Below, piece by piece: positions 30,627 to 35,027 of a stretch of 64,000 nt of DNA. Within the stretch, counting starts at the first letter, position 1; every line of letters starts with the position of its first letter. Location of the stretch: the NCBI GenBank assembly GCA_016841965.1, contig JAEANN010000002.1:1-64000 (forward strand), read 5' to 3'. Below the pieces are notes generated by a model. That model was not told the DNA's origin and did not search any database. It saw only the letters and a program-made list of their open reading frames with translations. The stretch is from Candidatus Roseilinea mizusawaensis. GTDB lineage: Bacteria; Chloroflexota; Anaerolineae; J036; Brachytrichaceae. A program made the position numbers and the translations under genes.

Positions 30627-30654
30627 TTGACAACGGGCAAAGACATTGTATACT
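30627..30654 (+). promoter_or_regulatory. Strong sigma70-type promoter of the 68-residue protein gene
   Basis: A perfect TTGACA and TATACT are separated by 16 bp. An AT-rich tract (about 30556-30600) lies just upstream and could act as an UP element. The predicted leader is about 120 nt, long for this window; its role is unknown. Confidence 0.7.
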
Positions 30655-31012: not shown

Positions 31013-31049
31013 AAGCCCCCGGCTTCATGCTGAAGCCGGGGGCTTTTTT
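31013..31049 (+). terminator. Strong intrinsic terminator of the small-protein gene
   Basis: A 15-bp perfect stem (AAGCCCCCGGCTTCA and its complement, loop TGC) runs directly into six T residues. It lies 25 bp after the stop codon. Confidence 0.95.
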
Positions 31050-31119: not shown

Positions 31120-31160
31120 CAGGATGGCCTATTTCAGGATGGCCTATTTCAGGATGGCCT
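31120..31160. repeat. 15-bp tandem repeat, 2.7 copies
   Basis: CAGGATGGCCTATTT occurs at 31120-31134 and 31135-31149, and its first eleven bases at 31150-31160. It is non-coding by all signs. Confidence 0.85.
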
Positions 31161-31274
31161 TGTTTACGGGTTCTCGCTGCAAGGCGGATAGGCAGCCCCT
31201 GGGGTCGGCTGCGCACCGTCAGCTTGCCCGCTCAAACCAATCCCAAAGCGCAAGTTGGTATTCCAAAACCCACA

Positions 31275-31302
31275 TTGACAAAAAACAATAAAAATCTATA
31301 AT
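31275..31302 (+). promoter_or_regulatory. Perfect-consensus sigma70 promoter of the DUF2089 operon
   Basis: TTGACA and TATAAT match the consensus at all twelve positions with a 16-bp spacer rich in A. It is the only perfect match I noticed in the window. Transcription would start near 31309, about 100 nt before the first gene. Confidence 0.8.
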
Positions 31303-31406
31303 TCGGTTCAGATTTTCTAAGATGCGTTTTTGCTCTTTCGGCATCAGCAGCATGGCCGCCGATGGGTCGCTGTGCTGGCGTGTTTCGCACAAGGCTTTCA
31401 AATTCA

Positions 31407-31820
31407 ATGCAGCAGATACTTCCCACCCAGTGCCCGTTATGTGCGGGCGAGATTACCGTCACCCGGTTGTATTGCCCGGCATGTGATGTGACGATCGAAG
31501 GACGATTTGCCGTCGGACATTTTCTGCGCCTGACCCCCGAACAACTCGCCTTTGTCGAGACATTCGTGCGCTGTGAGGGCAAGCTGTCGCGCATGGAGGG
31601 CGAGCTGGGGTTGTCGTACCCAACGATCCGCAGCCGGCTGCACGATGTCATTCGCGCGCTGGGCTACGAGCCGGGCAAGGAGGAGTCGCCGTCCTCACCC
31701 AGAATTAGTGACGAGGAGCGGCTACGCATTCTGGAAGCGTTGAATCAGGGACGCATTTCGACTCAGAAGGCAATGGCGTTGTTGCAGGGCGACATGTCCG
31801 GCATCGACGCGGAGGAGTAA
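31407..31820 (+). CDS. DUF2089-family zinc-ribbon/HTH protein
   Basis: This 137-residue protein begins with a zinc ribbon (CPLC, about 9-12, and CPAC, about 24-27). A DUF2089-type region follows with LRLTPEQLAFVETFVRCEGKL and a sigma-like HTH (LGLSYPTIRSRLHDVIRALGY). The C-terminal 35 residues, SDEERLRILEALNQGRISTQKAMALLQG, form a SHOCT-like helical motif that recurs in the next two genes. The family is commonly taken as transcriptional regulators, so this may control its own operon. The frame is open 15 codons further upstream, but the ATG at 31407 is chosen because homology begins at MQQILP. The next gene starts six bases after its stop codon. Confidence 0.85.
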   Translation: MQQILPTQCPLCAGEITVTRLYCPACDVTIEGRFAVGHFLRLTPEQLAFVETFVRCEGKLSRMEGELGLSYPTIRSRLHDVIRALGYEPGKEESPSSPRISDEERLRILEALNQGRISTQKAMALLQGDMSGIDAEE

Positions 31821-31825
31821 ATCCA

Positions 31826-32980
31826 ATGGAACAACAAGTGCTTGCGACGGGAGACACCCCCGCCATCGTAGTCGAGGCAGTCAATGGGGATCTGCACGTG
31901 ATGGGTTGGGAGCGCGCCGAAGTGCTGGCCCGCGCGCGCTCGGATAGCGCCCTCAGCCTCGACCAGCGCGGCGACCACATTGTGCTGAGATGCCACGACG
32001 ACTGTGTTTTGCGGGCGCCGCAGTCTGCCACACTCGATCTGGTGCATGTTATCGGCGACGTGCGCGTCAAGCTGGTTCGCGGCGCGCTGACCGTTCGCCG
32101 GGCGGGCGACATCGGCGTTTATGGGGCCGGCCCCACGACTATCGAGGTAGTCAGCGGGGACTGTGTCGTTAAATCGGTGGCCGGCGATTTGCAGGTGAAT
32201 CAGGTAGGCGGAGATCTTTCTGCGCGCGATGTGCAGGGCCAATTCGTTGCGACTGCGGTGGGCGGCGACATCCGCATTAGCGGGATTGCCGGCATGGCAA
32301 CTGCATCTGCCGGCGGCGACATCTCGCTCAGTCTGACGCCGACACCCGGCCAGAAATGCCAGTTCACTGCAGGAGGCGACATCAGCGTGCGCGTGCCCGC
32401 CGACGCCAACGCACGCTTCACGATGACCAGCCGCGCAGACAATATTCGCGTGCGCATTCCTGGCGTGTCCAGCGGCGCCGGCACAGGCACCCGGCAGGTT
32501 ACGCTGGGCGATGGCAGCGCCGAGATCATCCTGACCGCCGGCGGCGACATCTCACTTTCCAGCGATAGCACCGGCCAGAATGTCGACGACCTGGGCGCAC
32601 GTCTCGACGCAGCGTTTTCTCGCATGGGCGACCTCATTGCCCAGCGCGCACAAGAGGCCGCCCAGCGCATGGCGTCGCGCGTCGAAGCCAAAGCACAGCG
32701 CGCAGCCCGCAAGGCCGAGCGCATGGCCCAGCGCATCGCGCGCGAGGCCGAACAGCAGTCACGCGGCTGGATGCGGCATGGACACCCCTTCGAGGGTCGT
32801 CACTTTGCCGGCCCCTTTGCGCCGCCTCCGCCCGGCACCCAGCCCACACCCCGTCCGGGCGCGCAGCCCGTAACGGATGAAGAGCGGCTGGCGGTTCTGC
32901 GCATGGTCGAACAGAAAAAGATTACCGTGGAGCAGGCAGAGAAACTTCTTGCCGCGCTCGAAGGAAACCCGCAATCATGA
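31826..32980 (+). CDS. DUF4097-type beta-repeat protein with C-terminal SHOCT-like motif
   Basis: This 384-residue protein has no signal peptide. Residues 1-255 are a beta-solenoid-like repeat of DUF4097 type, in which motifs such as VGGDIRISGI, AGGDISLSLT, AGGDISVRVP and AGGDISLSSD recur about every 25-45 residues. Residues 260-320 form a charged Ala/Arg/Glu-rich helix, probably a coiled coil. After a Pro-rich linker comes TDEERLAVLRMVEQKKITVEQAEKLLAALEG, the motif shared with both neighbours. DUF4097 proteins occur beside envelope-stress systems such as LiaFSR; the role here is not established. The stop overlaps a downstream ATG (ATGA) opening a broken small frame. Confidence 0.85.
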   Translation: MEQQVLATGDTPAIVVEAVNGDLHVMGWERAEVLARARSDSALSLDQRGDHIVLRCHDDCVLRAPQSATLDLVHVIGDVRVKLVRGALTVRRAGDIGVYGAGPTTIEVVSGDCVVKSVAGDLQVNQVGGDLSARDVQGQFVATAVGGDIRISGIAGMATASAGGDISLSLTPTPGQKCQFTAGGDISVRVPADANARFTMTSRADNIRVRIPGVSSGAGTGTRQVTLGDGSAEIILTAGGDISLSSDSTGQNVDDLGARLDAAFSRMGDLIAQRAQEAAQRMASRVEAKAQRAARKAERMAQRIAREAEQQSRGWMRHGHPFEGRHFAGPFAPPPPGTQPTPRPGAQPVTDEERLAVLRMVEQKKITVEQAEKLLAALEGNPQS

Positions 32981-33115
32981 ACGATGAGGCGGTCGAGGCC
33001 CTCACGAACAGTTGAACCCGCACAAGGGTTGAGTTCAGCGTCGCCGGATGCGCCGTTCTATGTCGATGTAGCAGAGGGCAAAAACGGCGCGCGTGTGCAG
33101 GTGTTCATCGGCTGA
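32977..33115 (+). pseudogene. Frameshifted remnant of a short protein gene
   Basis: An ATG overlapping the previous stop (ATGA) opens MNDEAVEALTNS and then stops at 33013-33015. One frame over, a reading frame ends with APFYVDVAEGKNGARVQVFIG and a stop at 33113-33115. That ending aligns with the C-terminus of the next intact gene (IDVVDEQDGEHVEIFVE). A single-base shift would join the two parts into one small protein. It could also be a sequencing error. Confidence 0.45.
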
Positions 33116-33195
33116 TTTGGAGATTGCTGGGCGTTGAGCCATTGACCCATTTGGCATTTGACTGAATGACCCAATCGCCAATCGGCGAAATGGAG
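33107..33195. repeat. Intergenic repeat with TTGAGCCATTG and related short words
   Basis: Degenerate words such as TTGAGCCATTG, CCCATTTGGC and CCAATCGCCAATCGG follow each other. TTGAGCCATTG recurs before hisG at about 53852-53862. The stretch looks like decayed tandem repeat DNA. Confidence 0.45.
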
Positions 33196-33203
33196 AAAGA
33201 GAA

Positions 33204-33593
33204 ATGGCTTCTGTTGAAGAACGCATGAAGGTGCTCAAAATGATCGAAGAGGGCAAGATCACAGCCGAGGAAGGCGCAAAGCTGCTGGCAGCTCTGGATA
33301 TGGGAGCGCGACCGAGCAAAGGGACTGTGCCGCCACCGCCGCCGCCGGCCGGAGCAGGGCGCTGGTTGCGCATCCGCGTCACCGACACAGCAACCAACCG
33401 GCCCAAGGTCAATGTCACCATCCCCATGGGGCTGGTGAATGTGGGCCTGAAGATGGGCGCGCGCTTTGCGCCGGAAACCGAGGGCCTGGATTGGCGGCAG
33501 ATCGCCGACGCCATCAACGCCGGCATGATCGGAAAGATCATCGACGTGGTAGACGAGCAAGACGGCGAGCACGTCGAGATTTTCGTGGAGTAG
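33204..33593 (+). CDS. Short protein with N-terminal SHOCT-like motif
   Basis: This 129-residue protein starts MASVEERMKVLKMIEEGKITAEEGAKLLAALD, the same helical motif that ends the two previous genes, now at the N-terminus. A Pro-rich linker leads to a compact domain of about 85 residues (WLRIRVTDTATNRPKVNVTIPMGLV to VEIFVE). I recognise no catalytic residues. GGAGAAAGAG precedes the ATG. It completes the DUF2089-DUF4097 operon and probably interacts with the same partner, since the motif is present in all three. Confidence 0.8.
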   Translation: MASVEERMKVLKMIEEGKITAEEGAKLLAALDMGARPSKGTVPPPPPPAGAGRWLRIRVTDTATNRPKVNVTIPMGLVNVGLKMGARFAPETEGLDWRQIADAINAGMIGKIIDVVDEQDGEHVEIFVE

Positions 33594-33605: not shown

Positions 33606-33628
33606 AGGGCAACCGGCTCGGTTGCCCT
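33606..33628. terminator. Hairpin between convergent genes
   Basis: A 10-bp perfect stem (AGGGCAACCG with CGGTTGCCCT, loop GCT) lies between the DUF2089 operon and the convergent beta-CASP gene and touches the latter's stop codon. There is no clear U-tract on either strand. Confidence 0.45.
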
Positions 33629-35027
33629 ACAATTCGAATGAATCTCCGCGCGCGGGAACATGGACGTTTTGCGCGCCCAATGCGCGCATCCCTTCAGCCA
33701 ACGCTTGCGCCGCGCGCTCCTCGCCGTGTACGACAAAGACCCCGCGCAGTTTGTCCACATGTGGCTTCACCCATTGCAACAGGTCGTCGCGGTCGGCGTG
33801 CCCGCTGAAGGCTTCGATGCGCCGCACTTCAGCGCGCACCCGGAAATCATCACCCAGGATACGCACGCGCGGCTCACCATCCAGAATGCGCCGGCCCAGG
33901 GTATGCTCGGCCTGGAAGCTGACAAACAGGATCATGTTCTTGGGATCCTCCAGCGTGTTGCGCAGGTGATGCAAGATGCGCCCGTTCTCGCACATGCCAG
34001 AGGCGCTGATAATGACTGCCGGCCCGCGCAAATGGTTAAGCGCCTTAGACGACTCGACATCGCGGACATAAAACAGCCGCCGAAAACCAAACACATCCCC
34101 GTTGTCCGCTTCGATCAGCAGTTGCCGGGTCTCGCGGTCATAGCATTCCGGGTGCTGACGAAAGATCTCGGTCACATTCACTGCCAGCGGGCTATCGACA
34201 AAGATCGGGACGTCGGGCAACTGTTTATCACGCATCAATTGGTGCAGGCCATAGACTATCTCTTGCGTGCGCCCAACCGCGAAGGCAGGGATGATAACCT
34301 TACCGCCACGCCGGACTGCGTCATCGACAGCCTGGCCCAGTTCCGGCAGCGCGTCTGCGATGGGCGGGTGCGTACGGTCGCCATACGTGCTCTCGATGAT
34401 GAGATAGTCTGCCTCCGGCATCGGACGAGGGTCGCGCAAGATCGGTAGCCCAAAGCGTCCCAGGTCGCCACTAAAACATATCCGCAGGCTGCGGCCGTTT
34501 TCTTGCGCCTCCACCAGCACCCAGGCCGACCCCAACATGTGGCCGGCGTCGCCGAGCCAGGCGCGCAGATTGGCTGTAAGCGCCATCGGCTTGCCATAGT
34601 CGTAGCTGGCAAAGGCATGCAGCGCATCCTCAGCGTCTTCGAGGGTGTAGATGGGTTCGATCGGCGGCAAATCGCCATCCTTGCTGCGACGCTTGTTCAG
34701 GAAGCGCGCGTCTTCCTGCTGGATCATGGCCGAATCGCGCAACATCGCAGCGCACAGATCGCGAGTGGCGTGGGTGCAATATACATGGCCGGCAAAGCCG
34801 CTTTTAACCAGGTTAGGAATGTTGCCGCTGTGGTCAATGTGTGCGTGCGACAAGACAACCGCGTCAATCTGGCCAGCCTCGAATGGCAGATTCTGATTGA
34901 TGGCATAGCTGTCAGAGCGGCGGCCCTGATAGAGACCGCAATCAAGCAGAAGCCGGCTCGACCCGGCTTCCAGAAGATGCTGCGAGCCGGTGACCGTGCG
35001 AGCAGCGCCCCAACACGTAAGCTTCAT
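33627..35027 (-). CDS. MBL-fold beta-CASP RNA nuclease/exonuclease family protein
   Basis: This 466-residue enzyme belongs to the RNA-processing MBL group (CPSF73/YSH1-like). Metal-binding HAHIDHSG is at about 59-66, GHMLGSA supplies a further ligand, and SGDLGR and the C-terminal SGHAD and VHGE motifs complete the active site. Residues 200-390 carry the beta-CASP insert (ESTYGDR, PAFAVGRTQE, SGMCENGRILHHL). It probably degrades or processes RNA. TATACT ends nine bases before the ATG, and the -10 overlaps that of the divergent bifunctional nuclease gene. Confidence 0.92.
   Translation of the reverse strand: MKLTCWGAARTVTGSQHLLEAGSSRLLLDCGLYQGRRSDSYAINQNLPFEAGQIDAVVLSHAHIDHSGNIPNLVKSGFAGHVYCTHATRDLCAAMLRDSAMIQQEDARFLNKRRSKDGDLPPIEPIYTLEDAEDALHAFASYDYGKPMALTANLRAWLGDAGHMLGSAWVLVEAQENGRSLRICFSGDLGRFGLPILRDPRPMPEADYLIIESTYGDRTHPPIADALPELGQAVDDAVRRGGKVIIPAFAVGRTQEIVYGLHQLMRDKQLPDVPIFVDSPLAVNVTEIFRQHPECYDRETRQLLIEADNGDVFGFRRLFYVRDVESSKALNHLRGPAVIISASGMCENGRILHHLRNTLEDPKNMILFVSFQAEHTLGRRILDGEPRVRILGDDFRVRAEVRRIEAFSGHADRDDLLQWVKPHVDKLRGVFVVHGEERAAQALAEGMRALGAQNVHVPARGDSFEL

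Follow-up and report, generated by a model that had tools for sequence, protein, structure and literature searches.

A reduced DUF2089-Toastrack operon with three SHOCT-like domains in Chloroflexota, its conserved promoter, and a possible role in envelope stress

We analyzed a 64,000-nucleotide stretch of DNA (the window) from a 3.86-Mb Chloroflexota (Thermoflexales-type) genome, in which three consecutive genes encode a DUF2089 regulator, a Toastrack (DUF4097-type) protein, and a third protein (Table 1). The first-pass annotation had proposed that these genes share a helical motif, and both the open reading frames and the motif are present. The motif corresponds to Pfam PF22746 (SHOCT-like_DUF2089-C), which hmmscan matched with E 3e-11 in the third protein, E 5.9e-9 in the Toastrack protein, and E 2.9e-5 in the DUF2089 protein (24.0 bits, just below the 27-bit cut-off). 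We assigned the domain to each of the three proteins, and the two AlphaFold2 models, of the DUF2089 and third proteins, both contain it as a two-helix hairpin. A six-frame search of the whole genome gave exactly three PF22746 matches, all at this locus. Three profile matches with none elsewhere rule out a chance motif. The domain resembles the published SHOCT domain (PMC3581485) in being short, two-helical, mostly terminal, and present on many proteins, but the copies here match a separate Pfam model rather than classical SHOCT. The annotation had also read a single motif, EERxxx...LLxAL, in all three proteins; the family is indeed shared, but the DUF2089 copy ends in LLxG. DUF2089 copies form a separate subclass, which excludes one identical motif.

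Table 1. Features of the operon, with positions in the window
Feature	Position	Strand	Details
Sigma-70 promoter, TTGACA-16 bp-TATAAT	31275..31302	+	exact consensus match
Candidate operator, inverted repeat ATTG-N8-CAAT	31274..31289	+	from sequence; overlaps the -35 box; putative
GTTCAG element just 3' of the -10 box	31306..31311	+	conserved in relatives
DUF2089 regulator	31410..31820	+	zinc ribbon and HTH, then a SHOCT-like hairpin at the C-terminus; reading frame open from 31362
SHOCT-like copy 1, in DUF2089	31713..31784	+	whole-genome PF22746 search
Toastrack (DUF4097-type) beta-solenoid protein	31826..32980	+	charged helical stretch, C-terminal SHOCT-like hairpin
SHOCT-like copy 2, in Toastrack protein	32879..32971	+	whole-genome PF22746 search
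Deletion junction, 43 bp without match	32981..33023	+	blastn against L141
3' remnant of deleted SHOCT + two-TM + core gene	33024..33118	+	frame ends in ASPDAPFYVDVAEGKNGARVQVFIG and a stop
Third protein	33204..33593	+	SHOCT-like hairpin at the N-terminus, then a Pro-rich linker and an alpha/beta core (T3core)
SHOCT-like copy 3, in third protein	33216..33299	+	whole-genome PF22746 search

The DUF2089 protein likely starts at 31410 rather than 31362. Matches by hmmscan to PF22747 (E 3.8e-12, 46.5 bits) and PF09862 (E 1.1e-21, 76.7 bits) place it in the DUF2089 family, with a four-cysteine zinc ribbon followed by a helix-turn-helix (HTH), both above the cut-off. The zinc-ribbon cysteines (C8, C11, C22, and C25) are nearly invariant among relatives. 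In the AlphaFold2 model (pLDDT 86), the HTH resembles sigma region 4, which is bound at -35 boxes, and RcsB, LiaR, and VraR, at the level of fold only (E 0.3 or worse). The second protein scored 22.6 bits against PF13349 (DUF4097; cut-off 22.9, E 7.9e-5, hmmscan), E 3.7e-5 against the LiaG model, and E 4e-72 against our own home-made profile. Its assignment as a Toastrack protein, despite the PF13349 score below the cut-off, appears well supported by its relatives. Beyond the SHOCT-like domain, hmmscan gave no Pfam match for the third protein. Its AlphaFold2 model (pLDDT 69) has helices at residues 4-16 and 21-33, followed by a b-b-a-a-b-b core. A fold search with this model found nothing in the PDB at or below E 0.001, and the best VIA Z was 4.2; with a pLDDT of only 69, this outcome gives no firm indication of a new fold.

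The operon is flanked by terminator-like structures. Upstream, a strong stem of 15 pairs followed by a T run (31013-31045) would shield it from upstream transcription. Downstream, a stem on the minus strand (33606-33628) separates the third gene from a beta-CASP/RMMBL metallo-hydrolase gene (33627-35024) that runs toward it.

The sigma-70 promoter upstream of DUF2089 is, as first annotated, a perfect consensus match. It is unique within the window and is conserved in near-consensus form in relatives. The whole genome contains 12 such perfect promoters and none of the reversed-pattern control, and a genome of the same genus (L141) has an 11/12 match at the corresponding place. Across the phylum, at least 11/12 consensus positions are matched upstream of DUF2089 in 32 of 94 loci (11 perfect), where shuffles give about 0.4 expected. 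Control genes in the same loci, which were crude gene calls, reached this level in 11 of 207 cases (1 perfect; Fisher 3e-10, the loci being related and hence not independent). A second near-perfect promoter-like site (TTGACA-16-TATACT, 11/12) lies at 30627-30654, upstream of a small ORF, and three direct copies of a ~14-bp sequence (caggatggcctattt) lie at 31120-31160, downstream of the first terminator-like stem and ahead of the operon promoter.

An inverted repeat overlapping the -35 box is a candidate operator. Relatives carry ATTGA-N5-T(C/T)AAT at the same place, and 44 nonredundant promoters give ATTGACA-N3-TTAA/TCAAT around the -35 box. The inverted-repeat score in relatives was 112, compared with 67 +/- 6.6 in shuffles and 40-67 for axis shifts other than +1. 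In the window, the gap between the shorter half-sites is longer, N8 rather than N5, which counts against the reading we favor below. The conserved element beyond the -10 box is placed slightly differently in the window: TTCA occurs at offset 3 in 7 of 47 relatives (0.19 expected) and at offset 4 here. The simplest reading is that DUF2089 acts on the strong promoter of its own gene by binding around the -35 box.

We determined how widely the genes occur together in 301 genomes drawn across the Chloroflexota. DUF2089 is present in 191 of them; 133 genomes contain both DUF2089 and the third protein, 58 DUF2089 only, 6 the third protein only, and 104 neither (Fisher 1.5e-30), a count in which some weak third-protein matches span the SHOCT part only. 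We also fetched 97 loci through DUF2089 or PF22746 matches and called their genes with home-made profiles. Among the 96 that hold DUF2089, the regulator has a SHOCT-like tail in 89, Toastrack is nearby in 82 (75 with SHOCT-like), and a T3core protein, related to the third protein, is present in 56. Loci picked by the third protein alone, with enough upstream sequence, contained DUF2089 in 58 of 62 cases, Toastrack in 57, and a major facilitator superfamily (MFS) transporter in 42; these relatives were sought with a single protein, a search that reached only close relatives, all of them Chloroflexota. For spread beyond this phylum, we rely on PMC11237479. The first-pass annotation had set its idea against two possibilities, that the motif would prove random in relatives and that the genes would not co-occur elsewhere. 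The motif is real and nonrandom in relatives, and the genes are linked in both locus sets and across the 301 genomes, so both checks came out on the side of the operon. In the neighborhood analysis that the annotation had called for, the genes form one conserved operon.

The gene content varies around this theme. Some lineages retain just DUF2089 and the third protein (L062-L066). Four loci have a swapped order, in which a Toastrack gene with an N-terminal SHOCT-like domain lies upstream of DUF2089 (L098, L099, L101, and L107). Third-protein relatives occur with no DUF2089 in the fetched stretch in four others (L233, L235, L236, and L237). Four distant relatives (L077, L114, L115, and L116) have a LiaF-like_C gene between DUF2089 and Toastrack, identified as PF09922 in L077. 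Such a gene was found in only these four among the loci, and it connects the operon directly to the Lia module.

Comparison with the same-genus genome L141 indicated that the operon in the window has lost genes. The order in L141 is DUF2089, Toastrack, MFS transporter, a 282-residue SHOCT + two-TM + T3core protein, and the third gene; the product of this fourth gene in relatives has two transmembrane helices and the same hairpin and core as the third protein. In the window, genes 2 and 3 are 223 bp apart, and the gap holds a gene remnant. This remnant comprises about the last 25 codons of the SHOCT-TM gene (33041-33118) and matches the intact gene in L141 (7782-8645; phmmer E 5.9e-11), in agreement with the DNA alignment. 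By blastn, the left match to L141 stops at the Toastrack stop codon, and the right match begins at L141 position 8557. Because identity resumes past the 43-bp junction, about 2.27 kb present in L141 is missing from the window; this segment encodes the MFS exporter and the greater part of the membrane protein. A 3' fragment without a start, together with intact copies in other families (L044-L061), marks the window as the derived state. The apparent deletion could be a misjoin in metagenome assembly, but sister matches flank both sides of the short junction, which points to a real deletion.

Exporter genes recur at these loci. We found an exporter in 42 of the 96 DUF2089 loci, a count biased upwards since the exporter profiles were built from members of these same operons; in the other 54, none lay within reach, which counts against our favored reading. 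Of the 67 loci with sufficient sequence, 28 have an MFS or ABC transporter gene downstream in the same orientation as the operon and 2 have one upstream; none has a downstream transporter gene on the other strand. The types differ. The L141 exporter is a Mef(A)-like MFS protein that scored 245 bits, far under the 675-bit cut-off, making it a relative of Mef(A) and not Mef(A) itself; L044 has an MdtG/Tet-like MFS exporter, and L151, L152, and L072 have DrrAB-like ABC exporters. This repeated linkage to different exporters suggests that export of toxic compounds is an output of the operon.

The annotation had put the operon forward as a candidate for an undescribed regulatory system. That it is undescribed is not supported: the motif is PF22746, and Ravi et al. 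2024 (PMC11237479) describe a DUF2089 + Toastrack "four-gene context," with SHOCT-like domains, for which PSP/Lia-like stress signaling was proposed. The SHOCT-like domain, the DUF2089 architecture (zinc ribbon, HTH, and SHOCT-like), and its operon with Toastrack are known from that source, and the operon in the window, with a SHOCT-like-tailed DUF2089 and a Toastrack gene, belongs to this context. The partners differ: in the paper they are LiaI-LiaF-TM, B-box, or PspC, whereas here they are the SHOCT + T3core protein, the SHOCT-TM-T3core protein, and exporters. None of those published partners is among the operon genes, and PspC was not found genome-wide. The T3core family, the exporters, and the promoter do not appear in the paper's description of the context, as far as its accessible text goes. 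Within the literature searched, the new elements are the T3core family, including a form anchored in the membrane, the link to exporters, a conserved promoter carrying the repeat, and the deletion.

Other known systems are similar in part. YvlB of B. subtilis and LiaX of E. faecalis also combine SHOCT-like and Toastrack/DUF4097-type domains and are tied to membrane stress, but their SHOCT domain is N-terminal and here it is C-terminal. Their partners are PspC-type (YvlC and LiaY), and they are controlled by LiaRS or sigma W, whereas control here would fall to the operon-borne DUF2089. The operon has neither a two-component system nor a PspC-type LiaY, unlike LiaFSR-LiaXYZ, and it lacks the PspA of classical PSP systems. 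In leaderless-bacteriocin loci (enterocin DD14 and bawcin), a DUF2089-family gene likewise adjoins ABC exporter genes, but that DUF2089 is short (89-98 residues), bacteriocin genes are present, and Toastrack and T3core are unmentioned.

The reading we favor, and hold with about even confidence, is that the locus is a reduced operon of the DUF2089-Toastrack type that responds to envelope stress and toxicants in a PSP/Lia-like manner. DUF2089 would control transcription of the operon that encodes it: its HTH, similar to those of sigma region 4 and LuxR, would sit on the -35 inverted repeat and hold the near-perfect promoter down until stress released the repression. The Toastrack and third proteins would be sub-membrane adaptors that relay membrane or toxicant stress, their SHOCT-like hairpins docking to a common partner or to a site at the membrane. 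The SHOCT + two-TM + T3core protein would fit as this site in most Anaerolineae-type relatives, where an MFS or ABC exporter would be the output. With exporter and anchor deleted, the remaining proteins may keep a residual membrane-stress role or be heading for loss. The domain composition, the co-conservation, the link to exporters, the deletion, and the conserved promoter and repeat are observed; autorepression, docking, release by stress, and export as the output are inferred, as are the annotation's ideas that the HTH protein could sense the state of the other two and that repression would be expected. In favor of this reading, YvlB binds PspA and LiaH in two-hybrid assays. Membrane localization has been proposed for SHOCT-like domains. 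Against it count the absence of PspC from the genome, the absence of a two-component system from the operon, and the position of the sole PspA homologue on another contig (C31). A signaling system apart from Lia/PSP, widespread in Chloroflexota and encoded in one operon, in which DUF2089 as a sigma-4-like zinc-ribbon regulator, the Toastrack adaptor, and soluble and membrane-anchored members of a new SHOCT + T3core family gate interchangeable drug exporters through competing SHOCT docking at the membrane, seems to us improbable.

The hairpins may instead bind each other, with DUF2089 sequestered by Toastrack, the third protein, or both in an anti-sigma- or titration-like switch. The confinement of all three PF22746 copies to one operon fits this, as does the likeness of Toastrack and third-protein hairpins, which is greater within a locus (0.537) than between loci (0.507; 0 of 2,000 permutations). 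The DUF2089 hairpin, however, had no such within-locus likeness or covariation with the other two (P = 0.34 and 0.78); the pattern suggests that the two adaptors coevolved and makes one contact common to all three less likely. Moreover, a published SHOCT domain did not homo-oligomerize, though it was classical SHOCT rather than PF22746. The copies need not bind one another, and the single helical interaction first envisaged for all three is unproven; we regard sequestration as unlikely. A different role for DUF2089, as an activator or RNA polymerase-binding regulator whose HTH recruits polymerase to the conserved promoter, draws on the similar folds of that HTH, sigma region 4, and LuxR/RcsB domains of the activator type. 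We consider this role quite doubtful: a near-perfect promoter requires no activator, and a dimer bound to the repeat on the -35 box would block polymerase. It is similarly doubtful that the operon here is a functionless, decaying relic left by the loss of exporter and anchor. The deletion and remnant speak for decay, and the gene set appears to be frequently lost, since PF22746 is absent from 11 of 28 searched members of the genome's family (G301-G323). In a second same-genus genome (L142), Toastrack was lost independently and the MFS gene kept, the contig edge falling in DUF2089. Yet all three genes that remain have intact frames, the promoter is perfect, the third protein shares 88% identity with its copy in the sister genome, and other lineages also retain just DUF2089 and the third protein.

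The operon connects two groups, the SHOCT-like domains and the Toastrack proteins, with exporters and with a regulator that has a candidate operator. This connection, with the candidate operator in view, makes their function testable. A conserved protein core that has no Pfam model can now be named (T3core), and the deletion is a natural one that parts the adaptor proteins from their exporter and membrane anchor.
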